Source: Eggerthellaceae bacterium
GTDB lineage: Bacteria > Actinomycetota > Coriobacteriia > Coriobacteriales > Eggerthellaceae
Reading direction: 5' to 3'
Assembly: GCA_017511465.1 (NCBI GenBank)
Contig: JAFWJU010000016.1
Coordinates: forward strand, 1-35,387
Length of the DNA: 35,387 nucleotides
In this document: in pieces, positions 12,473 to 30,774 of the stretch
How positions within the stretch are numbered: position 1 is the first letter of the stretch
Layout of the letters: each line of letters begins with the position of its first letter
Position numbers and translations under genes: made by a program
The notes under the pieces: model-generated
The model's database searches: none
Seen by the model: the letters and a program-made list of their open reading frames with translations, nothing else
Told to the model about the DNA's origin: nothing

Positions 12473-13132
12473 ATGGAACCCGATTTCAAGGCAATGGCGG
12501 AAAAAGACCCCTCGGGATTCGTGCTACTGGCAGACCACGTGCCGGGAATCATCCAGGAGATTCGCTATTACTCGACGTACAACTTCATCGGCGACCGCAT
12601 CGACGGATACGAGGAACCATGCGCGCTGATGACGGTGGAAGCCGCACGCGCCCTCAAGGCCGTCGCCAACGAGGTGGCGGTGCAGGGCTTGCGCCTTAAG
12701 GTCTTCGACGCATACCGTCCGGCCACGGCAGTCAAGCATTTCGTGTTATGGGGCATCGAGGATCTCGACCTGCGCATGAAGCCGTTCTTCTACCCCGACC
12801 TGGACAAGGAAGACCTGTTCGTGAAGGGCTACATCGCCAGCCAGTCGAGCCACAGCAGGGGCAGCACCATCGACCTGACCCTGTTGGACATGACCACCGG
12901 CAAAGAGCTCGACATGGGAAGCCCCTTCGATTTCTTCGGCGAGATATCGCATCCCGATTACCGCAGCATCACCGACGATCAATACGACAACAGGATGCTC
13001 TTGCAACGGACCATGATGCGCCACGGCTTCGTGCCGATCGATTGCGAATGGTGGCACTTCACGCTGGCAGACGAACCGTATCCCAACACGTACTTCGACT
13101 TCCCGGTTTCGTCGCAGTACCTCAGGCGCTAG
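12473..13132 (+). CDS. VanX-family D-Ala-D-Ala dipeptidase
   Basis: 219-residue cytoplasmic zinc peptidase of family M15D. All family residues are present: Arg82 in DAYRP, the SSHSRGS block with His127 and Asp134 as zinc ligands, the catalytic Glu182 and zinc His185 in EWWHF, and the C-terminal DEPYPNTYFDFPV, very like VanX of resistance clusters. The reaction is hydrolysis of D-alanyl-D-alanine. No vanH, vanA, vanR or vanS lies nearby, so a role in cell-wall dipeptide recycling is as likely as glycopeptide resistance. Only a weak AAGG precedes the start. Its 3' end overlaps the convergent operon end by 11 nt, with no terminator between. Confidence 0.9.
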   Translation: MEPDFKAMAEKDPSGFVLLADHVPGIIQEIRYYSTYNFIGDRIDGYEEPCALMTVEAARALKAVANEVAVQGLRLKVFDAYRPATAVKHFVLWGIEDLDLRMKPFFYPDLDKEDLFVKGYIASQSSHSRGSTIDLTLLDMTTGKELDMGSPFDFFGEISHPDYRSITDDQYDNRMLLQRTMMRHGFVPIDCEWWHFTLADEPYPNTYFDFPVSSQYLRR

Positions 13133-14144
13133 CGGGCGACGCGGACGCGTTGTCAGCCGCCGGAAGCTTCGGCTTTGGCGGAACAGCCTGATACAGCAGC
13201 TCGAGGAACACGAAGAGCGACCCCATCCCCACCAAAAGCCCGTCGAGCTTGGTATCGCCCGCGCGCTTCATCAGCTTCTCGAGCGCAGGAAGCAGCTGCC
13301 AAACGCCCCATGTGGCGATGATGGAATAGAACAGGGAGTTCTGCAGGCACACCTGTCCCATGAAGTTGTACTTCATGTCGCGGTAGTCCCAAAGCTCGTA
13401 ATTGCGGTTCGCAACCATCCCCGTGCCGAAGTCGACAGATGTGCAGGCAACCTGGTTGACTAGAAAGCTCGCCCCCATGGCAAGGGGCTTGCTCAATGCA
13501 GCTGGAACCGGGCTGGAAGCCAAAGCAGCCTCAATTGCATGCTTGGCAGGGACGAGCAACGAATCCGCAAGCACGGCAGCCGTGCCTTCTGCCGGGAAGG
13601 GGAACAGCCATTGGTCCCAAAGCATATGATTGCCCCGGTCATAGCCGCCCTTGAATATGCCGTATTTGATGCCGGTGCAAAACAGCATCTCGACCCAGTG
13701 GCCTAGCATAGAAAACGTCATGAAGTACAAGCCCAGCTTACGAGCCCGCGGATAAAACCCAGCCGAAAGCAGGGGTCCCCGCAGCGTGGGCAGCGCGCCT
13801 TTTCGCCGCTTGTACTCAGAAAACACGCCCAAACCCACCAACGCAACCGATTCGACGGCGTGCGCGATGGGCATGACCTTGTTGAACGCCTTTTCCTTAA
13901 GCGAGTCCTTGCTCCACGTACGCGTGACGTACGAGCCTTTCGATCGCTTGTTCAGCACGCCGAGGGCGACAGTGCCCACGGCGGTGGCGGCAGCAACCGG
14001 CAACGCGGCTGGCGAGCGCCTATGTGCAAGCCAAGTGCTCATCGCCGTTCCGATAGTGCTTGCCCCCACGCGCCAGAAGCTCGCGTCGTACGGTAGCTTG
14101 TCAGGATCGGAAGCCGCTGCATATGCATACCAAGATCCCAACAT
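13122..14144 (-). CDS. CmpB-type multi-pass membrane protein (paralogue 4, end of the operon)
   Basis: 340 residues with several membrane segments. It shares with three genes upstream a signature in fixed order: SMLGHWVEMLFC, YDRGNHMLWDQWLFPFPAEG, then CTSVDFGTGM, LWDYRDM and NFMGQVCLQNS. This is the pattern of the family called 'putative ABC-transporter type IV' (CmpB), whose biochemical role is not known. This copy is the most diverged at its N-terminus (two short hydrophobic segments and a basic KRRKG stretch) and has a Pro/Ala-rich tail. AAGGAGG lies about 7 nt before the ATG. No ATP-binding domain is present, so the family name should not be read as proof of ABC transport. Confidence 0.8.
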   Translation of the reverse strand: MLGSWYAYAAASDPDKLPYDASFWRVGASTIGTAMSTWLAHRRSPAALPVAAATAVGTVALGVLNKRSKGSYVTRTWSKDSLKEKAFNKVMPIAHAVESVALVGLGVFSEYKRRKGALPTLRGPLLSAGFYPRARKLGLYFMTFSMLGHWVEMLFCTGIKYGIFKGGYDRGNHMLWDQWLFPFPAEGTAAVLADSLLVPAKHAIEAALASSPVPAALSKPLAMGASFLVNQVACTSVDFGTGMVANRNYELWDYRDMKYNFMGQVCLQNSLFYSIIATWGVWQLLPALEKLMKRAGDTKLDGLLVGMGSLFVFLELLYQAVPPKPKLPAADNASASPASA

Positions 14145-14208
14145 CAGGCCGCCTCCTTCGACTCTCGCAAGATTCCCTTAAACCTTGTCCTTAAACATCC
14201 GACTACCG

Positions 14209-15300
14209 CTAGATTTGCCATCCGCCGAACGCTGCGGCGATGTCGAAGAAGTACAGCATGGCCAAGAACAGGTACATGCCCAGCAACCCGAACGCAAGGG
14301 CGTTGGCGACGCCTCGCGGCATGCGGCGCAAGCCCTTGTCCATGAGAGGATAAAACACCCACACGATGAGCGTGGCCGCGATGCTGTAGACCATCGAGTT
14401 CTGCAGGCACACTTGCCCCATGAAGTTGAAAGGCAATGCGCGGTAATCCCACAGGCTGTAATCTTGGTTGGCGACCATGCCGGTCGTGAAGTCGATGCAG
14501 GTGCAAACCGCCGCGTTGAGCAGGAAGCTGAGCAGCACGGCGAGCCACACGCGACCGCCCGTCTTCTTCAGCAGCCAGCGCGCTGCCGGGTGCAGCGCGA
14601 TGACGATCATGACCGCCGCCGCGCCTTCGGCCGTGAACGGGAACAGCCACTGGCTCCAGAGCATGGCGTTCGTGGGGTCGTAATCGCCCATGAAGACGCC
14701 GGCCACGATGAGTTGGCAGAACAGCATTTCGGCCCAATGGCCCAGCATCGAGAACGAGACGAAGTAGATCATCAGGTCGCGCCAGAACGTGCGCGTGCGG
14801 ACGCGTTCGCGTAGCGGCTTGTCCCAGCTGTGGCCTTCGGCTGCCCCGGGCGCCAGGTCGGGCGGCTTGCAAAGCACGCGCTTAGCCTGGGGCGAGAGCA
14901 TGAGGTATGCAGCGACCGCAACGGCGCCCGCGTATTCCATGGCGGCAATGACCATCGTACCCGCCTGGCCGATGTACATCGCGAGCTCGTCCATCGCACC
15001 AAATGCTGCATGGTCGACCATTGCAAGCGTCGCACCCAAAAATGCCGTGATCGCGCCGACCACCCGCGCACTTCGGGCACGTTGCGACATGAGCCACATG
15101 GTCACCGTGCCACCCGCCATGAGCAGCAGAACGCGCACCATGCTGATATCGTATTCGAACATATGCGGCGAGCACAAAAACCCGAACACCAAGGTCAGGG
15201 CCATGGCAAAGCCGAAGTACGCCTGGCACAGGCGAATGCCGACCGGCAAACTGGCGGTTTCCGAAACGGTGGCTTTCGAAATAGTATGCGTTTCGATCAT
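14209..15300 (-). CDS. CmpB-type multi-pass membrane protein (paralogue 3)
   Basis: 363 residues, about eight membrane segments. The N-terminal half has four or five hydrophobic helices, then a basic loop, then the family core: SMLGHWAEMLFC, GDYDPTNAMLWSQWLFPF, CTCIDFTTGM, YSLWDYRALPFNFMG and QVCLQNSMVYS. The Asp/Thr/Gly and Trp-Asp-Tyr-Arg residues lie in or next to membrane helices in all four copies. The start at 15300 has AAAGG 9 nt upstream; the open frame reaches 27 codons further but without a ribosome binding site. It is preceded by 133 nt of spacer after the ATPase fragment, the largest gap inside the operon. Confidence 0.8.
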   Translation of the reverse strand: MIETHTISKATVSETASLPVGIRLCQAYFGFAMALTLVFGFLCSPHMFEYDISMVRVLLLMAGGTVTMWLMSQRARSARVVGAITAFLGATLAMVDHAAFGAMDELAMYIGQAGTMVIAAMEYAGAVAVAAYLMLSPQAKRVLCKPPDLAPGAAEGHSWDKPLRERVRTRTFWRDLMIYFVSFSMLGHWAEMLFCQLIVAGVFMGDYDPTNAMLWSQWLFPFTAEGAAAVMIVIALHPAARWLLKKTGGRVWLAVLLSFLLNAAVCTCIDFTTGMVANQDYSLWDYRALPFNFMGQVCLQNSMVYSIAATLIVWVFYPLMDKGLRRMPRGVANALAFGLLGMYLFLAMLYFFDIAAAFGGWQI

Positions 15301-15433
15301 GCAAGAACCTTTCAAGCGATTCCCTTGGTACTTGATACTCATCTTCAAGCGCCAAGAGCCTCGCCGAGGCCTTGCCGTCATCTCTTTGTTACCCGATTAA
15401 GACACGAAACGCGAAGCGCATGACGAAACGCGG

Positions 15434-16903
15434 CTATGCGCTTTGCTTTTCGGCTTGCTTACGGGCGATAACTTGCCGATAGATCCAGCTAATGGCAACG
15501 CTCAGCATTTGCAGCACGCCGATTTGCGCCAGCGTGAACACGATGCACAACACCAGGGCGCGCGGCGACAAGCTGTAGATATCGAACAGCTCCCACAAAA
15601 AACCGCAGCATATTATCAGGCCGATGACGCACACGACGAAGACGAGAACCCGGTACTTGGTCGGTGGCTGGATAAGATTCACCAAAATGAGGAATCCCAC
15701 CACCGAAAGCAGGTAGGTGCTCGCCGTGCTCACGTCGGCTTTCGATATGCCAAACAACTCCGCGAACAACATCATGTCCGCGATAGCGATAAACGAGGTG
15801 AGCGCAGCGGGTATCGCCCGCATGAGCACTGTGACGATGAAGCGTCCTTCCTGTTTTTTCTCGTTTGGCCCGAACGTCAACAGGAACGCCGGCAGGCCGA
15901 TGTTGAACAGCGAAATGAGCGACACCTGATTGGGCGTGAGCGGATACACGAAGGCGCCGAAGATGGCGAACAACGCCATCGAGAGCGAGAAGATGTTCTT
16001 GTACAGGAACAGGGTGGCCGAACGCGTGATGTTGTTGATGTCGCGCCTGCCCTCGCTGACGATCTGACGCATGTGCGAGAAATCGGAATCGAGCAGCACG
16101 ACCTGAGCCGCCTGGCGCGCCGCGTCGCTTCCCGTGCCCATGGCTATCGAGCACTCCGCCTTCTTCATGGCAAGAATGTCGTTCACGCCGTCACCGGTCA
16201 TGGCAACGCGCTTGCCTTCGGCTTGCAACGCCTCGACCAACTGCCTTTTCTGCTCGGGCTTCACGCGGCCGAACACAGTGTAATCGCGCACGGCCTGGGC
16301 GATCTTTTCGGGCGTGTCGAGCGTCGACGCGTCCACGTAGCGTTCTGCCCCTTCGATGCGGGCTTCAAGCGCAACCTTCGAAACCGTCAGGGGGTTGTCG
16401 CCCGATATGACCTTCACCTCGACGCCCTGGCGGGCGAATTCCTCGAACGTTTCGGGCGCGTTCTCGCGCACCCCGTTCGAAAGGGCCACGAACAGCAGGG
16501 GCTTCGCTTCGCCATCGTCAACCTCGACAAACGCCAGCACGCGCAACCCCGCGCCGGCGCGTTCCTCAATCGCCTCGCGACTTGCCTGCATGGCGGTTTC
16601 GGAAAGGATGAACTCGGGCGCGCCCAACCTCAGCGTTTTGCCGTCGACAACGACTTGCGAGTACTTGAGCTTCGACGTGAACGGCGTTACCTCGGCACCT
16701 TCGAATAACCAATTGGGGACTGTCCCCAATTGGTTATTCAGGCGTTCGCGGAGGGCGATCATCGTGGCGTTGGCATCGGGCACCGTGTTCGTGTAGCGCG
16801 CGAGCAAGCCAAGCGTCTCGTCGGCGTCTTCGAGGGCGGTTCCCGTAGCGTCGAACAGCTCGCGCACGCTCATCTTGTCGCCATGGCAACCACCAACCGC
16901 CAT
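15434..16903 (-). pseudogene. C-terminal half of a P-type cation ATPase, truncated
   Basis: The frame encodes 489 residues equal to the second half of a HAD-type P-type ATPase. It holds part of the nucleotide-binding domain (DANATM, TPFTSK, LGAPE), the P-domain hinge MTGDGVNDILAMKKA and DSDFSHM, and about six C-terminal membrane helices. The N-terminal membrane helices, actuator domain and the phosphorylated DKTGT loop are missing, so it cannot pump ions by itself. Its apparent start overlaps the upstream membrane-protein stop (TAATG), so it may still be translated. A 35-bp palindrome interrupts the nucleotide domain in frame. I read it as a decayed gene carried in the operon; a new role for the fragment cannot be excluded. 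Confidence 0.7.
16704..16738. repeat. 35-bp perfect palindrome inside the ATPase fragment
   Basis: Two 17-bp arms (16704-16720 and 16722-16738) around a single T, with GGGGAC/GTCCCC at the centre. It adds residues NNQLGTVPNWLF within the nucleotide-binding domain without breaking the frame. GGGGAC...GTCCCC palindromes are typical of REP-like elements mobilised by IS200-type Y1 transposases; no such gene is in the window. Confidence 0.75.
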
Positions 16904-17967
16904 TACCCGAATATCAGTCCGTCGGGACCCACGTGCACGTAGTACAGAACCTCGAGGAACAGGTAAAACGCGACGAAACCCACGAACAAGCCGTTGGCAT
17001 AGCGCGGCGGCATGCGATGCAGCCATTTGGCCATAAGCGGGTAGATCACCCACACGATGAAAGTGGCGGCCACCGAATACACCAGCGTGTTCTGCAACAC
17101 GATTTGCCCCATGAAATTGAACGGCAAGTCGCTGTAGTCCCACAGCTCGTAGTTCGCGTTGGCCGTGATGCCGGTCGTGAAGTCGATCGTGGCGCACACG
17201 AGCATGTTCACGAGGAAGCTGATGATCAGCGTCAGCCACACGCGCCCGCCGGTTTTCTTGAGCACCCATTCCTTGAACGGGAACAGCAACAACGCCACGA
17301 GCACCACAGCGATGCCCTCTGCCGGGTACGGGCACAGCCACCAGTCCCACAGTTGCGCATGCGTGAAGTCGTAATCGCCCATGACCACGCCCAGCACGAT
17401 AAGCCAGCAAAAACCGATTTCGGCCCAATGCCCGGCAATAGAGAACGTGCAGTAATAGATGACGAGGTTGCGCAGCCACGGCCACGTGAGGGGTTTCTCG
17501 TAGATGTTCTCGTCGGGGTCGTGCGTGGGCTTGGTCGACGGGTCCGAATGGTTGACGAACACCTCTTTGACATGGGGCGAGAACGCGAAATAGCCGATGA
17601 TGGACAGCGATCCGCCGAAATACAGCACGCCGCCCGCTATGAGCACGGGCCAGCTGACGACTGCTGCGATACGGTCGTATTCACCCCCGAATGCCATGTC
17701 GAGGACTGACAGGATGACGACGACGGTCATCGAGACGATGACGTACTTGCGCGTGGCATCGGAGCGTCTCTCGATAAGCCAGACCGAACGTGCGGCAGCG
17801 GCCATGACCACGAGAATGCGCAGCAGGGTGATGTCGTACTCGAAGGAACCCGCCGGCATCAGCAGCGCATAACCGAGCACCGTCACCATGACCAAAATGA
17901 AGTAGACCTCGATGATCCGCACGATCGGCCCGAGGCCTACTTTGCTCTGCGTACTTTCCGCACCCAC
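16903..17967 (-). CDS. CmpB-type multi-pass membrane protein (paralogue 2)
   Basis: 354 residues. Four N-terminal membrane helices, a cytoplasmic loop of about 45 residues, then the shared core: SIAGHWAEIGFCWL, GDYDFTHAQLWDWWLCPYPAEG, CATIDFTTGI, YELWDYSDLPFNFMG and QIVLQNT. The first Cys of the usual QVCLQN motif is Val here. It starts with GTG, with AGGG five nt upstream, 21 nt after the preceding gene. Its stop overlaps the start of the ATPase fragment. Closest in length and layout to paralogue 3, so the two probably arose by duplication around the ATPase fragment. Confidence 0.8.
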   Translation of the reverse strand: MGAESTQSKVGLGPIVRIIEVYFILVMVTVLGYALLMPAGSFEYDITLLRILVVMAAAARSVWLIERRSDATRKYVIVSMTVVVILSVLDMAFGGEYDRIAAVVSWPVLIAGGVLYFGGSLSIIGYFAFSPHVKEVFVNHSDPSTKPTHDPDENIYEKPLTWPWLRNLVIYYCTFSIAGHWAEIGFCWLIVLGVVMGDYDFTHAQLWDWWLCPYPAEGIAVVLVALLLFPFKEWVLKKTGGRVWLTLIISFLVNMLVCATIDFTTGITANANYELWDYSDLPFNFMGQIVLQNTLVYSVAATFIVWVIYPLMAKWLHRMPPRYANGLFVGFVAFYLFLEVLYYVHVGPDGLIFG

Positions 17968-17988
17968 GTGAGCCCTGCTAAAGACACC

Positions 17989-19788
17989 TTAAGCGGCAGC
18001 TGCCGAAACAGACGCTTCGCTTGCCTCCGCGCTAGCTGAAGACGACTCGCTTGACGATGCACTCGACGCGCCGCTTGACGCAATGACCGAAGACCAGATT
18101 TCTTCATCGGTTTCGGCAAGCTCACCCCTGATGACCTTGACGCTCGCATCGATCTTGTCGAGCTCTGCGGTGATGTTCGCTTTCTCCGCATCAGTCAAAT
18201 AGCCGGAATTGGCGACATCCTCGCGTTCCGTACTTGTCATGGTTCCCAAGAGGTCGAACGCGCTATCTATCTTGGTGCGCTCATCACGAATCTTTTCTTC
18301 CTCTTGTTGCACCGCTATCACCCCGGCTAATTCGGGATGCTTGTTCTGCTCATCGACTCCCGGCGGGTTGATGATGTACAGCGACCAGATAATGGCGCCG
18401 AACACGGCCACGACGACGAACACGATGTTCATGATGTCACGCGGCACGCGCGCAATCCAGCGTTCCAGCAAGGGGTACACCCACCAGGTGATGATGGCCG
18501 CCACCACGCCGAACGCGGTGGTGTTTTGCAGGCACACCTGTCCCATGATGTTGCAGAAGTTGTCGCGATAATCCCATAGCTGCAAATCGGCGTTCACGAT
18601 GAGGCCCATCGAGAACTCGATGAGCGTGCACAGCAAGGCGCCGGCGAAGAAGCTAATGACGTATGCCAGCACGCGCTTCTTGCCGGAGAATTTCTTCTTC
18701 AGCCACACGAAGAACGGATAGAGCACCAGCGCGATGATGACAACCGCCGCGCCCTCCATGGGGAACGGGTACAGCCAGTCGCGCCACAGCAAGGTGTTGG
18801 ACGGGTCGTATTCTCCCTGCACGATGCCAAGGATGATGAACTGGCACATGCCCATTTCCATCCAGTGCCCGATAACCGAGAACAGGATGAAGTACATGAT
18901 GAGGTTACGGTAGAACGGCCATCCGCGACGGTTGATGACGAAGTCTTCCTTCTCGAAATCGCCATCGTGTTTTGCGAAGTCGTTGACCAGCGTGGCCTTC
19001 ACGCGCTTCGAGAAGATGAAGTAGAACAGCAGGAAAATGTAGAATGCGCCGCTTGTCACCAACGCGATAAAGTTGAAATGGCCGGCCGCGATATCGACAA
19101 ACGCAGGCACCACGATGCCGATAGCCGCCATGGCAATGCAGAAGGGGCGGCCGATCTTGTAGCGGTTGATGAACATCCAGAAGGCAACGCCTTCGAGAAT
19201 GACCATGACCCAGTCCATCATAGTGGTGACGGTGTAGGTCATGGCATCGCGGGACGTCAGCATAAGCCACACGAGGTATACGGCGATATGGCAAGCAAAC
19301 AGGACTTGCACGACGCGCATGAAGCCCATCGTGTTGGGCGCGCTGAACTTGATGGCCTCGTAGGCGCGTTTAGCCGACTTCGTGGCGGCCGCATGGTCGG
19401 CCTTTGCCGCCCTACGAGCCTCGCGCTCCTTCTTGCGAGCAGCTTTGGCCTGCTCGCGATTACCGCTTTGCTCGGCAATGACGGTAATGCGGGCAGCCTC
19501 GTCGGCAGCCTCGTCGGCTTCCATGGCGACACCCACCATGGCAACTGCCTCGGCAGCATCGAGCTGCGCCATCTGCGTTATCTTGGCGCGCTCGGCCTTA
19601 CCCGTGGAATATGCGCTGTCGATGGCACGCTCGGCACCCTCAAGCGCCGCAAGCTTTGCGTCGAGGTCGTCATCGACAACTTCATCGTCAAGCGACGCTA
19701 GGCGCTCATCGATGTCATTGTCGGCAAGATCGCCTTCGTCGGGCATTTCGGGAACATCGGGCGTCTCGATGGGCTCGAGGTTTGTCAT
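17989..19788 (-). CDS. CmpB-type membrane protein with long cytoplasmic ends (paralogue 1)
   Basis: 599 residues, the largest of the four paralogues. The first 150 residues are soluble, very acidic at the start and then Ala/Lys/Arg/Glu-rich and likely coiled coil. Membrane helices follow from about 160, then the family core: SVIGHWMEMGMC, GEYDPSNTLLWRDWLYPFPMEG, CTLIEFSMGL, LQLWDYRDNFCNIMG and QVCLQNTT. The usual Asp in CxxIDF is Glu here. After the last helix comes a charged region of about 90 residues and a Ser/Ala-only tail. It begins 10 nt after the STAS gene, so the membrane genes and the partner-switch genes are one unit. Confidence 0.8.
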   Translation of the reverse strand: MTNLEPIETPDVPEMPDEGDLADNDIDERLASLDDEVVDDDLDAKLAALEGAERAIDSAYSTGKAERAKITQMAQLDAAEAVAMVGVAMEADEAADEAARITVIAEQSGNREQAKAARKKEREARRAAKADHAAATKSAKRAYEAIKFSAPNTMGFMRVVQVLFACHIAVYLVWLMLTSRDAMTYTVTTMMDWVMVILEGVAFWMFINRYKIGRPFCIAMAAIGIVVPAFVDIAAGHFNFIALVTSGAFYIFLLFYFIFSKRVKATLVNDFAKHDGDFEKEDFVINRRGWPFYRNLIMYFILFSVIGHWMEMGMCQFIILGIVQGEYDPSNTLLWRDWLYPFPMEGAAVVIIALVLYPFFVWLKKKFSGKKRVLAYVISFFAGALLCTLIEFSMGLIVNADLQLWDYRDNFCNIMGQVCLQNTTAFGVVAAIITWWVYPLLERWIARVPRDIMNIVFVVVAVFGAIIWSLYIINPPGVDEQNKHPELAGVIAVQQEEEKIRDERTKIDSAFDLLGTMTSTEREDVANSGYLTDAEKANITAELDKIDASVKVIRGELAETDEEIWSSVIASSGASSASSSESSSASAEASEASVSAAAA

Positions 19789-20133: not shown

Positions 20134-22947
20134 TTACCACTTTTTCACTATCGTTACGACATTACTGCCACCTTCTCGCTCATAGCTCATTTCGTTAACA
20201 GATTTCTTGGCCATGAGAATACCCAAACCGCCGATGGGGACGTCCATGATGTTGTCAGGCGTCACCGCATCGGGCTTGGCAAGCGGGTCGAACGCGACGC
20301 CCTTGTCGATGATAACGACAGTGATGGACGGCGGGTCCGCAGTATAGGTCCTGTAAATCCTCACGATGCGCGGCACATCGGGTGCCGCATCGGCATAGGC
20401 GTACTTGCACACGTTGACGAACAATTCCTCGACGGCGATATCCAATTGGTTTTGGACGCGCTGGGGGCAAAGCCTGTTGTCGAGCTCCTCGTGCAGGAAG
20501 TCGTTAACCGTGTTTAGCTGCGCAAGCTCTGCTGGGACCTCGAGCACTCCCGTCACCTCGGGAGGCACGCCCACCTCGAGTGTGAGTATCGTGATATCGT
20601 CTGACTGCTCGGCGCCTTGCGCATAGGAAGCAACGTCTTTGCGTACAGATTCCAGCAGCTCGCGCGCGTGCAAGCGGTACCCTTCCTCCGCCACGGTCAT
20701 CAGCCTCTCTTCGCCATAAAGCTCTTCGTCGACGTTGAACGCTTCCGTCACGCCATCGGTGTACAGCAGGAACATATCGCCGGGCTTGCAGTCGACCGAA
20801 TGCGCGCGGTAGGTCATGTCGAACAAGCCGAGTACCGGACCCGACTTGTCGCGCATCCAACGCCAGCCACCTTCGCGTTGCCACAGCAGTGGTGGATTGT
20901 GGCCCGCATTCACATAGTCGACGTGCCCCGAGCCGTAATCGAGCACGCCCACCCAAGTTGTCACGAACATGCCCGCATCGTTACCGTCGACGAGCTGCCG
21001 GTTGGCCTCGGCCACCGCTTCGCCCAATTCCATGCCGCTTGCCACGAAATCGCGCAGCAACGCCTTGGCCCTCATCATGAACAATGCAGCTGGCACGCCT
21101 TTGCCCGACACATCGGCTACCACAAACCCGAGCTTGCCGGTTTTATCGTCGCAGTCATCGCCGATCAAGAAGAAGTCGTAGAAATCGCCCCCCACTTGCT
21201 TCGCCGCGTTCATGGACGCGTATATATCGAACTTCAAAACGTCCGGATAAGGCGGGAACGTGCGCGGCAACACGGCCTCTTGAATGGCGCGCGCCGTTGC
21301 CAGCTCGGCATCCATGCGCGTCTCAGCTTCGGCAATCCAGCCTTTCAGGGCGTCAACCGTGGTATTGATGCCATCCGAAAGCGAACCGAACTCGCGGGTG
21401 TCGTGGATATCGACACGAGCGTCCAAATCACCGTCGGTAACGCGTGCAAGAACGTCGTTCGTCTCGTCAACGCGACGCGCAACGACGCGGTTCAGCAATT
21501 GGGAAACGAGCGCGAACACGACGAGCAGCAGCACGAGCGCCGAGAGGGTCATCCAGACCATTACCGAGCTGCGCTTGGCGAACACCTGGTCAGAGGATTG
21601 TATCATGATGACTTTTTGAGTCGAAACCGCGCTGGATCCGTCGTTTTCCGTCGTTTGCTCTTGGGCTCCGGATTCCGCCAAAACCCCTTCGACGGCGAAT
21701 TCCTCGGCGTACACATACGCGATGAACGTACGCGTTTTCACGTTGATGATTCCCTCGAGGGCAGAATCCAGGGTTTTGGCATCCTCAAATACGACGCGTT
21801 GCATCTCCCCCGTTTGAATTGAGCGGTCAATAGCGTCGAGTACTTGCGTGCTGAATACGTTTTTGAGTTGCTGGGCAGTTGCAAAGCGATCGTCATTGGT
21901 TGCGAAGATGTAGTCATCGAGCGTGGTGATAACGGTTCCATCGTCTTTAACGGTATAACCCTTTAGCACCATGTCGTCTTGAAGGGTTTCGGTGAGCTTG
22001 TCGGTGATGCTGGTGTCAACCGTATCGTAGTCAACGTCGTATTGCTCGAAGACCCGCGAAATCAAATCAATTTGGGTGTTCGTCAATTTTAGCTGGTTTC
22101 CGATATAGCTCACTTCGCTCTTCAGGAGATCTTCTGCATCTCGAAGCTCGTCAACCGACGAAACCGCAAAGCTTGCAGCAGACATGACCATGAACGCAAG
22201 AGCCACCACGACGGCGAGCCACGTCCCGAACACGGTACGTAGCCCCGGGACGTCCACGCGCTCCCTAATCTTGCAAGCCACAAGATCGCCGGCAATACAC
22301 AACACGGCCATGACGAAAGCCGTCGACTGACCCTGCAGGCTCAAATCGCCCAGCTGTAAGGCCATGCCCACCGAAGCAGTCCGTATGCCGGCTTCGCTGG
22401 CATCAGGTCCCAATTCATTTGCAATGCTGATGACAAGCTGGATAAAGACGTTGATCGTGAATCCCACGCTGTACAGGAACGATACGATTATGCACACGAT
22501 GATGATGTAAATTGCGCGTTTGATCTTCGAAGAAGGATTGTTGCGCAATACGAATGCGAACAAGGCGCCCAACAGCAACCCGCACACGCTGAACATGACT
22601 ATGGATGTCATTGGATTGACGAACGTCAACTCGTAATGGTCGAGGGGGAAAACGTGGGCATGCAACAACAGCACGCTGCCCGTCATGAAACCGATCGCCA
22701 CGCCTGGCAGCGTGCCCAGCAGCAATGCGCCCAAAGCCACGACTTGCAGCAGCACGACCATGTACCCGACGGTTCCATCTGGCATGACCAAGTCCACGAA
22801 GCCCAATTGGGTGAACGTCAACGCAGCGCCCGCCACAGTGAGCACGATGGCGATCATCCACCTCAGCACGCGGCTGTCATTGGCCAGGACGCCACGCCAA
22901 CTTAAGATCCTCGCCTTTTTCTTCTTAGTTGCAGCTTCAGTTGCCAT
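20134..22947 (-). CDS. Membrane SpoIIE-type phosphatase fused to an anti-sigma-kinase-like ATPase domain
   Basis: 937 residues. Six membrane helices (about 30-265), an extracytoplasmic region of about 190 residues (270-460), a seventh helix (463-485) and a HAMP-like linker (485-540) precede the catalytic part. The PP2C/SpoIIE domain (about 565-790) has GGDFYDFF, ADVSGKGVPAALF, NAGHNPP, LLYTDGVTEA and QSDDITIL. A C-terminal HATPase domain (about 800-937) has EELFVNVCKYAY with the N-box Asn, DKGVAFDP and GGLGILMAKK, as in RsbW-type kinases. One protein could therefore both phosphorylate and dephosphorylate STAS partners, controlled by an outside signal. It is flanked by STAS genes on both sides. 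Confidence 0.9.
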   Translation of the reverse strand: MATEAATKKKKARILSWRGVLANDSRVLRWMIAIVLTVAGAALTFTQLGFVDLVMPDGTVGYMVVLLQVVALGALLLGTLPGVAIGFMTGSVLLLHAHVFPLDHYELTFVNPMTSIVMFSVCGLLLGALFAFVLRNNPSSKIKRAIYIIIVCIIVSFLYSVGFTINVFIQLVISIANELGPDASEAGIRTASVGMALQLGDLSLQGQSTAFVMAVLCIAGDLVACKIRERVDVPGLRTVFGTWLAVVVALAFMVMSAASFAVSSVDELRDAEDLLKSEVSYIGNQLKLTNTQIDLISRVFEQYDVDYDTVDTSITDKLTETLQDDMVLKGYTVKDDGTVITTLDDYIFATNDDRFATAQQLKNVFSTQVLDAIDRSIQTGEMQRVVFEDAKTLDSALEGIINVKTRTFIAYVYAEEFAVEGVLAESGAQEQTTENDGSSAVSTQKVIMIQSSDQVFAKRSSVMVWMTLSALVLLLVVFALVSQLLNRVVARRVDETNDVLARVTDGDLDARVDIHDTREFGSLSDGINTTVDALKGWIAEAETRMDAELATARAIQEAVLPRTFPPYPDVLKFDIYASMNAAKQVGGDFYDFFLIGDDCDDKTGKLGFVVADVSGKGVPAALFMMRAKALLRDFVASGMELGEAVAEANRQLVDGNDAGMFVTTWVGVLDYGSGHVDYVNAGHNPPLLWQREGGWRWMRDKSGPVLGLFDMTYRAHSVDCKPGDMFLLYTDGVTEAFNVDEELYGEERLMTVAEEGYRLHARELLESVRKDVASYAQGAEQSDDITILTLEVGVPPEVTGVLEVPAELAQLNTVNDFLHEELDNRLCPQRVQNQLDIAVEELFVNVCKYAYADAAPDVPRIVRIYRTYTADPPSITVVIIDKGVAFDPLAKPDAVTPDNIMDVPIGGLGILMAKKSVNEMSYEREGGSNVVTIVKKW

Positions 22948-23277: not shown

Positions 23278-25470
23278 TTACGCCTCCTTGTCCAACCGCT
23301 GCCGTTCAACCAACTCGGCGAAAATGCCGCCCTTTCCTATGAGCTCCTCGTACGAGCCTTCTTCGACAATCGTCCCCCCATCCACCACCAGGATGCGGTC
23401 GCAATGCTTCACGGTAGATAGGCGGTGAGCTACCACTATTCGCGTGCATTTTAGCGCATCGAGCGATTCGCTCACGTGCTTTTGCGTCTTGTTGTCAAGC
23501 GCGCTCGTAGCCTCATCTAACATGAGGATGCGACGCTTCCCGCACACGGCTCGCGCTATCATCAGCCTCTGGCGCTGGCCGCCCGAAACGCCGCCTCCGC
23601 CTTCTGTCACGAAGGTTTGCATTCCCATGGGCATCTTACGGATGTCGTCGGCAATGCCCGCAATCTCAGCCGCCTCCCAAGCGTCATCGATCGTCGCGGT
23701 CGGAGTCGATATCGTGATGTTGCTCGCTATGTCGCCCATGAAGAGCTTGCCATCCTGCATGACTACGCCAATATGCTGGCGCAAGCTGCGCAAATCGACT
23801 TTGGTGGCATCGTGTGGCCCATAGAAAATCGCACCGCGTTCGGGGGTCTCGAACCCCAGCAACAGGCGCATGATGGTCGACTTCCCGCAACCGCTCTTGC
23901 CGACAATGGCCACGTATTCGCCCGAACGCACCTTGAACGACAGGTTTTGCAATATGTACGGGCCGTTCTCGTCGTACCTAAACGAGACGCCCGAAACCTC
24001 GATTCCGCCGTTAAGCGATTCGACCGACGGTTTGTCCTCGGCAATTTCGGGCGTCGCTTGCATAACGGGCTCTACCGTTTCGAGCATGGGGCTGATTTGC
24101 GCTATTTGGCTAGCGGTTCCGGCAAGTGCCATTATGGCGGCAGTCACTTGGCCGTAAGCCACGTTGAATGCCATGTAATTGGGAACCGACACCCCCGAAC
24201 TGCCAGCCAGGTAGTAAATCGCTATGTTGCCCAAAAGTCCGACGAGTCCCACTATTGCAGGCAGTGCCCGTAAAAGGGTCGGACGGTTGTAGGCGGCACG
24301 GGCGTAGTCCGCATAACCATGCGCCCATTTGGCGAACGCGCGGTCCTCGGCACCCGCGAGCTTGATTTTCTGGATGCCGCTTAGAAGGGCCGTCACCGTG
24401 CCCGACAGCTTGACGCTCGCCGACATCGAATCGCGTTCGAAGCGCATGGTCGCAAACGTGACCAATACCGTGAACACCGCTTGGATGATCACGACGGCCA
24501 ATGCGGGAAGCGCGAGTGCCGACGCGTAAGCGCCGATTTGCACGATGTAAACCAGCGATAGCAAAGCCGAGAGACTCGAACCCAGGATGACCGCGGCGAG
24601 CGTCTGCGTCAGACGACGCACGTTAAACACGCGGCTCGCCAAGTCGCCCAACGAATACTGCTTGAAGAACGAGGGCGGCAAGGCCAAGACGCGCGCGAAG
24701 GTTGCCGCTTCGGTCACCACGTCGAGCTTGGTCGACACGCGGGCCATGACGAGGCTCCGACACGCGTTGATGAGCGCAGTCGATATGGCCACGCCGAGAA
24801 GCAGCGAAGCCACGGGTAAAATCAAACGCGCCTGGCCGGAAGGCGCCACCACGCCGTAGGCCACCTGGTTGGCCCATGCGGGAACCAACCCGATGAGCGT
24901 CACGGCTAAAGCCGCAATCACCACGAGCAGGTAATCGTTTCGGTCGAACACATGGAAGATGAACGCCATCAAGTCGCGCAACGACAGCGGTTTGGCGGGC
25001 AGCGGCCTGTAGAACAGCGTGGCATTCGTGCCGATGTGCGCAGCCACGTCGCGGGTCACCCTGACCTTGTTTCTGCTGACAGGGTCGAAGTAGTAGTATC
25101 CGCGAATGCCACGCGGGAGCAACGCGATGGCTTCGCCTGTATCCAAGTGGCCGACCATAGCCCCAAAGGCCTGCCTGTACCAGCCTGGTTCCAAGCGGAC
25201 GTTTCGGCGCATCGTGCCAGTCGGGCGGCAAAGCCACTCGATGCGCTCCTCGACATCGTTTATGTCCGGCGGCACCGATCCTGGCTCGACGCCAATGTAT
25301 TTCAAGCATGCCTTTGCGGCGCCATCGACCTGCTCGACGTCGTCCATGGTGAAGGCCGGCGCACGGCGGCTATCGGTTACACTTGCCGCAAGCTCTGCGT
25401 AGGCGCGCTCCGTCAGTTTGGCATCGAGCTTCGACCGCGCCTCGATTTGCGATTCCATCCACCTAGTCAT
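23278..25470 (-). CDS. NHLM-type export ABC permease/ATPase (second exporter subunit)
   Basis: 730 residues. The N-terminal 160 residues are a domain without a peptidase Cys: WLCRPTGTMRRNVRLEPGWY, then IALLPRGIRGYYYFDP and LFYRPLPAKPLSLRDL. This layout is typical of the second ABC subunit of NHLM (nitrile-hydratase-leader microcin) exporters. Six membrane helices follow, then the ATPase domain with GKSGCGKST (near 521), VSGGQRQRL, ILMLDEATSALD and the H-loop VVAHRLSTV. It probably pairs with the upstream peptidase-type ABC protein to export a leader-bearing peptide. Its start overlaps that gene's stop by 8 nt. Confidence 0.88.
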   Translation of the reverse strand: MTRWMESQIEARSKLDAKLTERAYAELAASVTDSRRAPAFTMDDVEQVDGAAKACLKYIGVEPGSVPPDINDVEERIEWLCRPTGTMRRNVRLEPGWYRQAFGAMVGHLDTGEAIALLPRGIRGYYYFDPVSRNKVRVTRDVAAHIGTNATLFYRPLPAKPLSLRDLMAFIFHVFDRNDYLLVVIAALAVTLIGLVPAWANQVAYGVVAPSGQARLILPVASLLLGVAISTALINACRSLVMARVSTKLDVVTEAATFARVLALPPSFFKQYSLGDLASRVFNVRRLTQTLAAVILGSSLSALLSLVYIVQIGAYASALALPALAVVIIQAVFTVLVTFATMRFERDSMSASVKLSGTVTALLSGIQKIKLAGAEDRAFAKWAHGYADYARAAYNRPTLLRALPAIVGLVGLLGNIAIYYLAGSSGVSVPNYMAFNVAYGQVTAAIMALAGTASQIAQISPMLETVEPVMQATPEIAEDKPSVESLNGGIEVSGVSFRYDENGPYILQNLSFKVRSGEYVAIVGKSGCGKSTIMRLLLGFETPERGAIFYGPHDATKVDLRSLRQHIGVVMQDGKLFMGDIASNITISTPTATIDDAWEAAEIAGIADDIRKMPMGMQTFVTEGGGGVSGGQRQRLMIARAVCGKRRILMLDEATSALDNKTQKHVSESLDALKCTRIVVAHRLSTVKHCDRILVVDGGTIVEEGSYEELIGKGGIFAELVERQRLDKEA

Positions 25471-27622
25471 TGCTCACCAACTCCGCATACGCGCCGCCAG
25501 CGGCGATGAGGCTCGAATGGGTGCCGCGCTCGACGATCTTGCCCTCGTCGAGCACGATGATCTCGTCACAATCGCGTATGGTCGAAAGCCTGTGCGCCAC
25601 GACGATGCACGTGATGCCCCGATCTCGGATATGCCGCATGACCTCGGCTTCGGTTTTCGCGTCGAGCGCGCTCGTGGCTTCATCCAAGATGATGACCGTG
25701 GGATCGGTGGCCAAAACGCGCGCAATCTCGAGACGTTGCAGCTGGCCACCCGAATAGTTACGGCCGTCGGGCAAGACGCGGTTGGAATACCCGCCTTCGC
25801 GACTGACGATGTCGTCGTGTATGCCGGCATCGCGGCAAGCGATGATAACCTCGTAGTCTTCGATTGACCGGTCCCACAGCTTGATGTTGTCTGACACCGT
25901 ATCGTCGAACGTGACGATATCCTGGTCTACAACGGCCAATGACCCGCGCAACACTGGCCTCGGGATATCGCCTATCGGGGCATCGTCGAACTTAACCGAG
26001 CCAGACCATGGCTCGTAAAGTCCGGAGACCAGTTTTGCGATGGTCGATTTCCCGCAACCCGAACCGCCCACGAGCGCCACCCATTGGCCGGGCTGCAGAT
26101 GCATGTCGAATCCCTCGATGAGCGGTGGCTCGAGCGGCGAGTATCCAAACGTCACGCCTTCGAGGTCGACTTTCCCGAACAGCTTCTCGCGATCGAGGGC
26201 CTTTGCGTCAACGGGGGGTTCGGAATCTTCGGGCACATCGGCCGGATAGCGCATGACGTCTTCGACTCGCTCCATTTGCGTCTGCATTTCCTGGACCATC
26301 TGCCCGAGGTTGATCATCTCGCTCACCGGCGCCATGAACGATGCCAGGAAGCCCGTGAACGCCAGCAGCGCACCCGGCGTGAACGCGTCCTCGATGATGA
26401 GCCAGATGCCCAAGACGAGCACGGCGATGTTGGCCATTTGCGCTACGACCTGCGGCACTGCGCCCAAGTACGAGTTGAGGCGCGTCGCATTCGTCGCAGA
26501 CTCGTTAGCGGCTGCCTGGTATCCTGCCCATCGGCCAAAATAACCGTTCTCGGCACCGGACGCCTTAATCGTCTCGACCATCTGGATGCCGCCGACGGTC
26601 GTTGCGTACAGCTTGCCCTCGTTCATGGCGCCCGCACGCGCGATGTTCACGCGTTTTCGGGAAATATAGCGGGCGATCAGCACGTTGAGTATCACCGTGA
26701 GCAAGCCCACCACGGTGAGCAGCACGCTGTAGTTCAGCATTATGGCCAGGTACAGCACGAGCATCACCGTGTTTATGAGCACGGGAGCCAGCTGTCCCAC
26801 CAGCGAAAACGCAATGGTCTCGTTCATGGCTTGCCGCTGCTGCAAATCGCCGACCATGCGTTGCGCGTAAAACCCGACCGGCAAATGCAGCAGATGGCGC
26901 ATGAACCGCGACGACGAGACGACGGCTATCTTTCCCTGGATGCGAACGAGATACACGGCATTGAGAATCGAAACGATGCCGGTCACAACGGCAAGCGCCA
27001 GCATCACCGCCGTCAGCGGAACGAGCCAATCGGGGTTATCTCCTGTAAGGATATGATCGAGGAACACCTGGCCAAGCGACGTGTTTACAATGGCGACAAT
27101 CGATGTGATAGCAGCTGTCAGCATGACGAACGCGATGGCAGGCGCAAGGCCTTCCAAGCGCTTGCGCGCAAAGGCAACCGTATTGGGTTTGCTGCCGCCT
27201 TCCTGGAAAGCGTCTGTCTTCTCGAATACAAGCGCGATTCCGGTAAAGCTTTGATTGAACTCGTCGATAGGCACCTTCACCTGGCCACGTGCCGGATCGT
27301 TTATGTACACGTACCTGCCTCTGAAGCCTCTTACGACCACGAAGTGGTTGAAGTTCCAGAACACGATGCAGGGGAACGGCTCCTTCTTGCGAAGCGCCTC
27401 GGTCGAGAACGTCATGCCTTTAGCCGTCAGCCCGTAACTGCGGGCAGCTTTCAGGATGTTCGAGGCCTTCGACCCATCACGCGACACGCCGCAATCGGCA
27501 CGCACCTTTTCGAGAGGCACCCATTTGCCGTAATACGCGAGAATCATCGTCAGGCAGGCGGCACCGCATTCCAGCGCCTCCATCTGCATGACTTGGGGGA
27601 CTTTTGGAACTCGTCCTGCCAT
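25463..27622 (-). CDS. NHLM-type C39 peptidase/permease/ATPase
   Basis: 719 residues. The N-terminal C39 domain has Gln13, Cys19 in ECGAACL, His93 in FNHFVVV and Asp109 in YINDPA, the full catalytic set that cleaves leader peptides after a double-glycine-like site. Six membrane helices span about 165-440. The ATPase domain has GGSGCGKST (near 515), YSGGQLQRLEIAR, VIILDEATSALD and VVAHRLSTI. Such proteins cut and export peptide substrates across the cytoplasmic membrane. It begins directly after the HlyD-like gene (TAA then ATG). The likely substrate is the 66-residue peptide encoded upstream. Confidence 0.92.
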   Translation of the reverse strand: MAGRVPKVPQVMQMEALECGAACLTMILAYYGKWVPLEKVRADCGVSRDGSKASNILKAARSYGLTAKGMTFSTEALRKKEPFPCIVFWNFNHFVVVRGFRGRYVYINDPARGQVKVPIDEFNQSFTGIALVFEKTDAFQEGGSKPNTVAFARKRLEGLAPAIAFVMLTAAITSIVAIVNTSLGQVFLDHILTGDNPDWLVPLTAVMLALAVVTGIVSILNAVYLVRIQGKIAVVSSSRFMRHLLHLPVGFYAQRMVGDLQQRQAMNETIAFSLVGQLAPVLINTVMLVLYLAIMLNYSVLLTVVGLLTVILNVLIARYISRKRVNIARAGAMNEGKLYATTVGGIQMVETIKASGAENGYFGRWAGYQAAANESATNATRLNSYLGAVPQVVAQMANIAVLVLGIWLIIEDAFTPGALLAFTGFLASFMAPVSEMINLGQMVQEMQTQMERVEDVMRYPADVPEDSEPPVDAKALDREKLFGKVDLEGVTFGYSPLEPPLIEGFDMHLQPGQWVALVGGSGCGKSTIAKLVSGLYEPWSGSVKFDDAPIGDIPRPVLRGSLAVVDQDIVTFDDTVSDNIKLWDRSIEDYEVIIACRDAGIHDDIVSREGGYSNRVLPDGRNYSGGQLQRLEIARVLATDPTVIILDEATSALDAKTEAEVMRHIRDRGITCIVVAHRLSTIRDCDEIIVLDEGKIVERGTHSSLIAAGGAYAELVSND

Positions 27623-28132
27623 TTACGCATTGCCCCCGAGAATGAGTCTGATAGGAGGAATCTGGTCGGTCGTTATGTTCACGGACAGCGGCACGCTGTC
27701 GGGCAAGTCGCTCGCATCGCCCTCGAACGTCACCTGATAGACCCAATCGCCATTTACAAGCGTGCTGACAAGGTAATCGCTTTTCATGATGCCATGGGCC
27801 TCGTCGCGAGATACGGGCACAGTCGCCACCTTCGCAACCGTCATCCCCTCTCCGTTAACGGACACGTTATCGCCAACATGGACCTTTGCCACATCTTCGG
27901 CAGTCAAGAAGCACATGGCGCGTCCATCTATTGAAACACCTGTTGCCGACACGTTGGTAGTGACAGCCCCGAAAACGCCCCATGCCAGCAATCCAACCAG
28001 CAACGCGATGCACGCAGCCAGGATCACCCACACGCTGGGGTTCGTCACGCGTACGTACTTGTCGAGGTCATCGGGGCTGCGGAGCTTGTCGGTCGCCGCA
28101 CGGTTGAATATTGGTTTGGTCATGTCGGCCAT
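27623..28132 (-). CDS. Short HlyD-like NHLM secretion protein
   Basis: 169 residues. A cytoplasmic N-terminus (DKLRSPDDLDKYVRVTNP), one membrane helix at about 32-54, then an extracytoplasmic beta-rich part (VHVGDNVSVNGEGMTVAKV). The N-terminal motif and position match the HlyD-family member of NHLM export clusters, which links the exporter to the outside. It is much shorter than the usual members and has no coiled-coil hairpin, in keeping with a cell lacking an outer membrane. The ATG at 28132 has AGAGGGG 6 nt upstream. A second in-frame ATG at 28123 overlaps the sigma-factor stop as ATGA. The gene overlaps the sigma gene by 13 nt. Confidence 0.75.
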   Translation of the reverse strand: MADMTKPIFNRAATDKLRSPDDLDKYVRVTNPSVWVILAACIALLVGLLAWGVFGAVTTNVSATGVSIDGRAMCFLTAEDVAKVHVGDNVSVNGEGMTVAKVATVPVSRDEAHGIMKSDYLVSTLVNGDWVYQVTFEGDASDLPDSVPLSVNITTDQIPPIRLILGGNA

Positions 28133-28668
28133 TGCATGCCCCTCTCAGCCGCCTCGCGCATCTTGGAAAGCGCGTTGGCGAGCTTTGTCGATACCGTAGA
28201 GGGATTCATTCCCAGCTTATTGGCTATATCCACATTCCGCATGCCGTCACGGTACTTCAGCAACACGAGCTCGCACTCTTCGTCGTCGATTGTCGCCAGC
28301 AACCGGCGTGCCAAGTCCTGGTCGTCGATGGCATCTTGTCCGCCCGAAATAGCTGAAGCCGATTGCGGTATCTCATCCAAAGTGATGGTCGTCTTTTCTT
28401 TTCGATAGTGCGAAGCCATGCAGTTCTTTGCTATTGCCAGAACCCACGTGGAAAACTTTGCACGCGTCGGGTCGTACGCTGCAAACGATCGAGCGGCTTT
28501 CAGAAACGCTTCGGCTACGACATCCTCGGCATCGGCGTCGCACGACATTCGGGCACGCACAAAGCCATATACGAGCCCGTAGCTTTCCAGATAAAGCCTC
28601 TCGAATTCGAGCTCGCGCGCGCTCTTTGCAGTAAACGATGCCCGTATAAGCCGCGGTTTTCCGTTCGT
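28120..28668 (-). CDS. Sigma-70 family RNA polymerase sigma factor, non-canonical start
   Basis: About 182 residues if read from 28668. Region 2 covers FERLYLESYGLVYGFVR, DAEDVVAEAFLKAARSF and FSTWVLAIAKNCMASHYRK; region 4 (CELVLLKYRDGMRNVDIANKLGMNPSTVSTKL) is a helix-turn-helix. It would direct RNA polymerase to its own set of promoters, probably including this operon. The conserved reading frame extends upstream of the first GTG (28560), which would cut off part of region 2, yet no ATG, GTG or TTG exists before an in-frame TGA. The best-placed codon is ACG at 28668, 6 nt after GGAAAGGG. Either a rare start, a mutated one, or a truncated product. Confidence 0.75.
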   Translation of the reverse strand, partial: TNGKPRLIRASFTAKSARELEFERLYLESYGLVYGFVRARMSCDADAEDVVAEAFLKAARSFAAYDPTRAKFSTWVLAIAKNCMASHYRKEKTTITLDEIPQSASAISGGQDAIDDQDLARRLLATIDDEECELVLLKYRDGMRNVDIANKLGMNPSTVSTKLANALSKMREAAERGMQWPT

Positions 28669-28788
28669 GAAAAGCCCTTTCCGTCAACGGAACACTAACC
28701 GTCAATTTTACTGCATAAATTAGGATAGAAAAACCTGATAAGGGCAGGATAATCGAATGAAACGAAAGCGAAGGGCGCCTGACGCGCG

Positions 28789-28989
28789 TCACATTTTCAG
28801 ACGAGCGTTAATGTCTCCGGCTGCGGCAATCAAATCGAGCTCGTCATCGTCGATGCACACGCCCTCGTTATCTGCGTCCAGAACAGACAGGCAACGCTCG
28901 AGCAGCTCGTCGCGAAAGGTTTCGGAGCTGGCGGGAAGCCCCTTTTCCAGTACTCGTTCGAGCATGCGCTCGAAATCCCAGTCTTCCAC
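28789..28989 (-). CDS. Candidate exported-peptide precursor with a C39-type leader motif
   Basis: 66 residues, strongly acidic and helical, beginning MEDWDFERML. Near the C-terminus it reads IDDDELDLIAAA followed by GDINARLKM. Set against double-glycine leaders, Ile46, Glu50, Leu51 and Ile54 fall at positions -12, -8, -7 and -4, and Ala56-Ala57 at the -2/-1 cleavage site. The released product would be about nine residues. Cysteines are at 33 and 45. The GTG start is preceded by a strong AAGGAGG. It lies 120 nt upstream of the sigma factor and the C39 exporter on the same strand. Precursor status is inference from motif and context; it could instead be an unrelated small regulator. Confidence 0.6.
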   Translation of the reverse strand: MEDWDFERMLERVLEKGLPASSETFRDELLERCLSVLDADNEGVCIDDDELDLIAAAGDINARLKM

Positions 28990-29120
28990 GTCGCCTCCTT
29001 CCGCGCTGACCGCTTTTACACGTATGCTACCTTATACGCGCCGTTTCGAGAATTCGTCTTGGCAAACGGGCGCGTAGAACGCGGCGGATGTTTGGAATCC
29101 GCCACATTGGCCGCAATGGG

Positions 29121-29175: not shown

Positions 29176-30648
29176 TTACTGGAGGAGCTTGGCGAATTTC
29201 AAGCCCTTACCTGCATCCTCCTTCTTGTCCTTCCAGATCAGCATGCCATCCTTGTTGATGGAGAACTCGGCGCTTCCGTCGGTGTACACCGTCTTGGGAT
29301 CGCCGCCGTCCTCGCTCACGAACTTGCTACCGCCATCGGAGCAAACCAGCTTATCGCCCTTGACCTTGACGGTGTATTTCCACGAATACGTCTCGCCAGA
29401 GCCCTGATCCCATTCGATGGTCACTATGACATCACTGCCGACGGTATCAACCTTCAGAGAGGCCTTGTCGTCTTGCCACGAACCCAAGTATTTTTCGATC
29501 TCTTCCGTTTCATGGGACCTCAAGGACACGTTAACGGTCGTTCGCGGTGTGACCTGCGTGCCCGCTGTAGGCGACTGGCTGACAACCGTGCCCTCGCTGC
29601 CGTCGGCGTCGAGCGCCAAATTCAGCGCGTCAGTTGCTTGCTCGGCAGCGGTAAGGGACATGCCGGTAAGGTCGGGGACTTCGACGTATTGCACTGGCGC
29701 GCTCAGCGTCACGGTGACAAGCGTGTTGGGAGCAACCTTCGTGCCTGCGGCAACGTCCTGCGACACCACAACGCCCGCCGGGTCACCGGTATAACGGGCC
29801 GCAAGACCCGCAGAATGCAGCGAGGCTTCAGCGTCGCTCCAAGAGAACGACATCACATCGGGAACTGTCACGTTCTCGACCGGTTTCGGGCCAAGCGACA
29901 CCTGGACGGACACGGTCGTGCCCTGCTTGACTTTTGAGTCCGCAGGCAGGGACTGGGCAATGACCTTGCCTTCGTCCACATTGTCGTTGTACGCCGTCGT
30001 GCTGTCGAATCCGAGCTTCGCATCCGAAATGGATTTCTTCGCATCATCGCGAGTCATGCCGACCACATTGGGAACCGTCGCCTCACCCGGGGCGGTGGCA
30101 ACCGTGAATGCGACCTTGGTGCCCTCTTTCACCTTGGTGCCCGCTGCAACGGATTGCTTGAACACGTGACCAGGCTGAACCTCGCTAGTCTCCTCGGGGT
30201 TCGAAGCCACGCCGACGAGGCCCACGTCGCTCAGTGCCTTCTCGGCATCATTTTGCGTCTTGTCCTTCAAGTCGGGCACGACTACGTCTTTGAGCTCCGC
30301 CTTGCCGGACGACACCACTAAATCGACCTTGGAATTGGCTTTCGCGTTTGTCAGGGGCTCGGGGGTCTGCGAGATAACGCTACCCAACGGAACCGTATCG
30401 GATGCCTCCTGCTTGATGGTTCCCACCTGCAGGCCAGAAGCGAGAACGGCCTTTTCTGCGTCGGCTTGCGTTAACGACACCACGTTGGGAACCGTGTACA
30501 TGACGTCTCCGGAAGCCGAACTGCCTGACCCCGATGTCGAGCCCTGCTGGTTCGAGCAGGAGCAGCTTGCGAGCGCGAGCGCGCCGACGACAAGCACGGC
30601 CGCTGCAACAAGCAGGAAGAGCCTCCGCCCTAGCGAAACCTTCTTCAT
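29176..30648 (-). CDS. Lipoprotein with five PASTA domains
   Basis: 490 residues. A signal peptide ends in a lipobox LASC (Cys29), followed by a Gly/Ser linker. Five PASTA repeats follow from about residue 45 to 385, each opening with a VPNVV/VPDL-type strand and a helix (TQADAEKAV, TQNDAEKAL, TRDDAKKSI, SWSDAEASL, LTAAEQATDAL). PASTA domains bind peptidoglycan fragments and beta-lactams. The last 100 residues (YLGSWQDD ... EFSINKDGMLIW) look like a separate beta-sheet domain that I do not recognise. PASTA repeats usually sit on Ser/Thr kinases or penicillin-binding proteins; here no kinase or transpeptidase is attached. The ATG at 30648 follows GGAAAGGA; the frame extends 27 codons further without support. 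Confidence 0.88.
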   Translation of the reverse strand: MKKVSLGRRLFLLVAAAVLVVGALALASCSCSNQQGSTSGSGSSASGDVMYTVPNVVSLTQADAEKAVLASGLQVGTIKQEASDTVPLGSVISQTPEPLTNAKANSKVDLVVSSGKAELKDVVVPDLKDKTQNDAEKALSDVGLVGVASNPEETSEVQPGHVFKQSVAAGTKVKEGTKVAFTVATAPGEATVPNVVGMTRDDAKKSISDAKLGFDSTTAYNDNVDEGKVIAQSLPADSKVKQGTTVSVQVSLGPKPVENVTVPDVMSFSWSDAEASLHSAGLAARYTGDPAGVVVSQDVAAGTKVAPNTLVTVTLSAPVQYVEVPDLTGMSLTAAEQATDALNLALDADGSEGTVVSQSPTAGTQVTPRTTVNVSLRSHETEEIEKYLGSWQDDKASLKVDTVGSDVIVTIEWDQGSGETYSWKYTVKVKGDKLVCSDGGSKFVSEDGGDPKTVYTDGSAEFSINKDGMLIWKDKKEDAGKGLKFAKLLQ

Positions 30649-30774
30649 TTTCGTTCCTTTCCCTTTATAAAGACGGACAGCTTTATGATAAGGCAAGAAC
30701 GACAGCGCATGGTGTTGACGAGAGCGCAATGGAACGGGCTCGGGTACATGACACCCTTTTCGAATGGCAATTCG

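Follow-up and report, generated by a model that had tools for sequence, protein, structure and literature searches.

The systems closest to the locus described here are the Nif11-related leader peptides (TIGR03798, N11P) and the NHLM exporters (TIGR03794, TIGR03796 and TIGR03797) (Haft et al. 2010, PMC2887384). Two others invite comparison: the double-glycine signals of the ComC/ComAB type and the ECF sigma factors that have an autoregulated small partner. We analyzed a 35,387-nucleotide stretch of DNA from an Eggerthellaceae bacterium (contig JAFWJU010000016.1; hereafter the window), in which a gene for a 66-residue peptide resembles each of these systems in some respects and departs from each in others.

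Like the Nif11 peptides, the peptide has a hypervariable tail and the same type of exporter and, in relatives, the same ECF promoter; the leader ends, ELSDEELEAVAGG for Nif11 and ELDDxELELLAAA for the family to which our peptide belongs, stand in equal register. Unlike them, it carries Ala-Ala in place of Gly-Gly and an unrelated N-terminal leader domain, its family's tails are short and mostly without Cys, and its gene is tied to a sigma gene of its own. It gave no match to the TIGR03798 profile and received no family assignment in Pfam, NCBIfam or PADLOC. With the ComC/ComAB type the locus shares a C39-type leader, an exporter within the gene unit and, in some relatives, an adjoining kinase and regulator. 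However, in the window a sigma factor takes the place of the kinase, the leader is longer (57 residues), the relatives' kinases are of the LytS/His_kinase type (PF06580), and signaling is here something that we infer. As with ECF sigma factors and their partners, a small gene lies beside the sigma gene under an ECF-type promoter, but the Ala-Ala peptide is soluble, has a C39 leader and contains no recognized anti-sigma domain. We read the precursor as belonging to a new Ala-Ala leader family; in the literature searched we found no description of this peptide family or of this sigma regulation of secreted peptides.

The precursor and its leader

The peptide gene lies at 28,789–28,989 on the reverse strand, begins with GTG and encodes MEDWDFERMLERVLEKGLPASSETFRDELLERCLSVLDADNEGVCIDDDELDLIAAAGDINARLKM. 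The strong ribosome binding site reported in the initial annotation is found 5' of it as AAGGAGG at 28,994–29,000 (reverse strand), and the reading frame itself, its leader residues (Ile-12, Glu-8, Leu-7, Ile-4, Ala-2 and Ala-1) and its tail free of Cys, Ser and Thr are present exactly as described there. Because homologues exist in other genera, with 34 sequences that align, we regard the frame as a real gene. From the cleavage register and an AlphaFold2 model, residues 1–57 (28,819–28,989, reverse strand) are assigned to the leader, which ends in Ala-Ala, and the predicted mature peptide is the nine-residue GDINARLKM (28,792–28,818, reverse strand), the shortest of the family. The model, of moderate confidence (pLDDT 73, pTM 0.34) and used for secondary structure only, has helices at residues 3–15 and 21–39 and a leader helix at 48–57. 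Among the 218 short open reading frames of the window (40–110 residues) the positional leader pattern occurs in the peptide gene only, and it appears in 0.45% of shuffles of the precursor's own sequence. An Rfam scan of the window returned no RNAs.

Relatives of the peptide were found in the same genus and across the family Eggerthellaceae, in 22 of 138 family genomes (18 of them strong), and also in named contigs, many of which come from ruminant gut metagenomes and one of which is labeled Atopobiaceae. We aligned 34 sequences, 27 of family 1 and 7 of a second family, anchored on the cleavage site. In all 34, position -12 is Leu, Ile or Val, -7 is Leu, -4 is Leu, Val or Ile, and -2 and -1 are both Ala; position -3 varies among Ala, Ser, Thr and Asn, and none of the sequences has GG, GA or GS at -2/-1. 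Such invariance of type strongly supports the C39-leader reading with which the analysis began. Apart from the cleavage-site residues, this is the constraint pattern of the substrates of LahT150, a C39 domain for which -12, -7 and -4 matter and -3, -5 and -8 tolerate change (PMC6363468). The C39 cleavage sites described are GG, GA and GS, and Ala-Ala is not among them (PMC10885120). In a profile comparison with the Gly-Gly Nif11 leaders of the same genus, 14 columns align, the last of them being -1 (E 0.0055), and these final 14 residues are the only part of the Ala-Ala leaders that aligns.

Conservation does break at the proposed site, the information content falling towards background past +2, but the break is imperfect, as +1 is Gly in 26 of the 27 family-1 members; in the second family (n = 7) it is Glu, Gln, Met or Lys. 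The tails span 9–30 residues and in relatives include Ser, Thr and some Cys, with a low Cys content of 1.2%, so that the argument for signaling drawn from a tail lacking all three residues fails as a family trait. Taken as a whole, the comparison indicates that the small gene very probably encodes a short secreted peptide of a rumen bacterium.

The second Ala-Ala family (CDFPARESFREALL...LAAA) was seen at L028 (651–905) and at L117–L122 (L numbers are our locus labels). Its genes carry a promoter of the TGAAACGG type with a 12-nt spacer and in some genomes lie near a second exporter set with its own sigma paralogue (36–41% identical), which this promoter may match. A possible third and more divergent member (LSIEELGMLNAAGDPSVFWAKWGESGFQ; L039, 1091–1881, reverse strand) adjoins another sigma gene.

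Exporter, sigma factor and promoter

Five genes follow the peptide gene on the same strand. They encode an ECF sigma factor (Sigma70_r2, Sigma70_r4_2; 28,120–28,683); a short HlyD-like NHLM secretion protein of 169 residues (27,623–28,132), with a weak N-terminal match to TIGR03794 whose 45 bits fall below that profile's cut-off of 156, so that it is no full HlyD-like protein of this family; NHLM exporter subunit 1, a C39 peptidase-permease-ATPase (25,463–27,622; TIGR03796, 935.9 bits, cut-off 853.3) whose C39 triad is intact in sequence (Cys19, His93 and Asp109); exporter subunit 2 (23,278–25,470), borderline for TIGR03797 (709.3 bits, cut-off 709.4); and, 3' of the exporter genes, a HAMP-SpoIIE phosphatase-HATPase_c_2 protein (20,134–22,947). 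The last of these adjoins the cassette in some relatives too (L020, L061 and L115) and is a possible sigma-control element. The initial annotation had placed the peptide gene just upstream of a C39 exporter. It does lie on the same strand and to the 5' side, but the sigma and HlyD-like genes intervene and the distance is 1.17 kb. Between the peptide and sigma genes there is no strong terminator and no sigma-70 promoter, and the sigma, HlyD-like and exporter genes are probably co-transcribed with the peptide gene.

The order from peptide through sigma factor and HlyD-like protein to the two exporter subunits is retained in genera g1, g10 and g45, and in g19 up to the contig end. A C39 exporter is adjacent to the peptide in 14 of 27 family-1 loci and present in 17 of the 18 peptide genomes, the exporter gene of the eighteenth (G062) being cut by a contig end, so the expected company of peptide and exporter is borne out; the association across 138 genomes has a Fisher value of 8e-13, which shared ancestry inflates. 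The closest partner of the peptide is nevertheless the sigma factor; the link to the exporter is clear but less strong. Genes closely homologous to the window's sigma gene occur in all 18 strong-peptide genomes and in 19 of 138 overall, that is, in one extra genome (Fisher 1e-21, again inflated by shared ancestry), and such a gene lies within ~3 kb of the peptide in 22 of 27 family-1 loci. Locus counts were made by hand on one genome per species, and because most of these are fragmented metagenome-assembled genomes, absences of genes are uncertain. The idea of an exporter clade specific to Ala-Ala peptides was dropped, as exporters 74–79% identical occur without a nearby peptide (L029, L034 and L036).

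Several neighboring features were also noted. SpoIIE-type phosphatase genes adjoin NHLM exporters that have no sigma gene (L036, 3583–6796; L037, 6667–9977), and at L036 a STAS-like protein beside the phosphatase and NHLM genes suggests partner-switching control. Four CmpB-type (PF06541) membrane proteins are clustered at window positions 13,122–19,788 with a P-type ATPase-like frame between them, and relatives of these genes recur near the peptide cassette. The sigma frame is open and has no canonical start before region 2: no ATG, GTG or TTG precedes the conserved EFERLY region in the window (28,560–28,683, reverse strand) or at L016, L019, L021, L023 and L108. The region is conserved as protein despite the absent start codon in several genomes, and translation there probably begins at a non-canonical start or by some other mechanism.

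Upstream of the peptide gene is an ECF-type promoter (29,032–29,058, reverse strand) with a -35 element GACGAAT (29,052–29,058), a 13-nt spacer and a -10 element CGTATAA (29,032–29,038); it ends 42 nt from the start codon, and no match arose in 100 shuffles. Nearly all family-1 peptide genes have the family form, GACGGAA-13 nt-CGTATAA, ~45 nt to their 5' side, with the spacer fixed. Matches to the motif and to controls stand at 61:2 in the 19 sigma-positive genomes and at 16:30, i.e. no enrichment, in the 119 sigma-negative ones. There is strong sequence support for recognition of the peptide promoter by the sigma factor encoded beside the peptide gene, or by one closely related.

Within the genus, 18 of 34 motif matches lie just 5' of Nif11 peptides, against 0.013 expected, and seven lie 5' of genes of the Ala-Ala family. 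Since the motif precedes so many Nif11 peptides, the sigma regulon of some relatives would consist largely of exported peptides. The window's own genome contains a single strict match, the peptide promoter itself, and the Nif11 peptides encoded there lack the motif, so that no wider regulon is apparent in it. Nif11 Gly-Gly peptides are abundant genus-wide (e.g. L060, L173 and L175), with up to 26 hits per genome, and many carry the same ECF promoter as the Ala-Ala peptide. A PASTA-domain lipoprotein gene lies 5' of the operon (29,176–30,729, reverse strand), and its homologue at L182 sits behind this promoter as well.

Proposed role of the peptide and alternatives

We consider it somewhat better than an even bet (probability about 0.55) that the 66-residue product is a peptide precursor, expressed through the sigma factor, whose short tail is exported by the NHLM C39 exporter and most likely serves as an autoinducing signal. 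The precursors of this conserved family have a predicted two-helix N terminus, an amphipathic leader helix, the invariant Ala-Ala and a hypervariable tail. The neighboring sigma factor, or one closely related to it, would direct transcription of the gene from the ECF-type promoter, and the sigma factor, the HlyD-like protein and the two-subunit exporter, encoded 3' of it on the same strand, would be co-expressed. The C39 domain of the exporter would then bind the leader helix, cut after Ala-Ala and export GDINARLKM. Because the sigma factor would drive the peptide, and probably also itself and the exporter, the operon would act as a positive-feedback unit, with the peptide most likely setting the sigma regulon as an autoinducing signal. 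The regulon of some relatives would include many Nif11-type Gly-Gly peptides. Sigma-driven expression and exporter cleavage are the parts that the sequences support well. Counting against the reading as a whole are an Ala-Ala site outside GG, GA and GS, the near-invariant +1 Gly of family 1 and the lack of an apparent wider regulon in the window's genome.

Signaling is a plausible role and would be the likeliest one for the peptide. It is the better supported because the peptide has an obligate ECF sigma partner and a sigma-type promoter and because a histidine kinase and response regulator lie within the cassette in several relatives (L018, L022, L023/L024, L069 and L114). Against it, a cassette-type histidine kinase is missing from the window's genome, whose only match is a core kinase at 36% identity, and two kinase/regulator pairs elsewhere have no adjacent peptide. 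The notion that the kinase is essential to the cassette was dropped, given its absence from the window's genome. In most pairs of closer members the sensor halves of the kinases are less conserved (~43–52% identity) than the kinase halves (58–72%), though such a difference is usual in kinases anyway.

The main rival to an autoinducing signal is an export-coupled regulator: the N-terminal helices would restrain the adjacent ECF sigma factor, cleavage at Ala-Ala by the exporter, with loss of the tail, would inactivate the regulator, and exporter activity would be read out as sigma activity by a FlgM-like logic, with the tail largely a handle. Sigma/anti-sigma pairs are commonly transcribed from a promoter driven by their own sigma factor; here the sigma factor is the most faithful partner, its gene adjoining the peptide gene also at loci with no exporter nearby (L016, L017, L025 and L074), and no other anti-sigma gene was recognized in the cassette. 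The N-terminal FSxGTExFRDxLLxRCLxxL is moreover conserved beyond the needs of a recognition helix alone, and the tails share no common sequence. We still judge this unlikely, as a sigma gene is missing beside several peptide genes (the first copy at L020, and L113), one genome holds four copies, and a tail pattern, LPPxxET, is kept among three g10 species; Nif11 leaders, too, have conserved helical N termini yet are not anti-sigmas. That one protein is both inhibitor of the ECF sigma factor and exporter substrate, with a tail that also signals to neighbors, seems to us a long shot; if true, the leader half would restrain the sigma factor until the exporter's cut at Ala-Ala and release of the tail, and the freed sigma factor would report export through its activity and open a secreted-peptide regulon.

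A bacteriocin-like role is also unlikely. The tail could be a bacteriocin or a modified peptide (RiPP) under control of the sigma factor, as would be the Nif11 peptides that have the same promoter; with them the precursor shares leader register and hypervariable tail, and NHLM exporters have been described with modified peptides (PMC2887384). Yet the cassettes showed no maturation enzyme, the window's tail offers nine residues without Cys, Ser or Thr, the family's tails are poor in Cys where the Nif11 tails compared mostly contain it, and the peptide gene is bound to a regulator rather than scattered. The unusual Ala-Ala and the conserved +1 Gly would also suit a cytoplasmic protein with a coincidentally leader-like end. 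This we consider very improbable in view of the invariant -12, -7, -4, -2 and -1 around a free -3 (n = 34), the match to the Nif11 register and the linkage to the exporter.

Together these comparisons show the peptide gene, the exporter and the neighboring sigma factor as what appears to be one unit, which in some relatives would switch on many other secreted peptides. A leader family with an invariant Ala-Ala would escape genome mining based on Gly-Gly, and the pairing of the ECF promoter with its sigma factor predicts a secreted-peptide regulon of rumen Eggerthellaceae.
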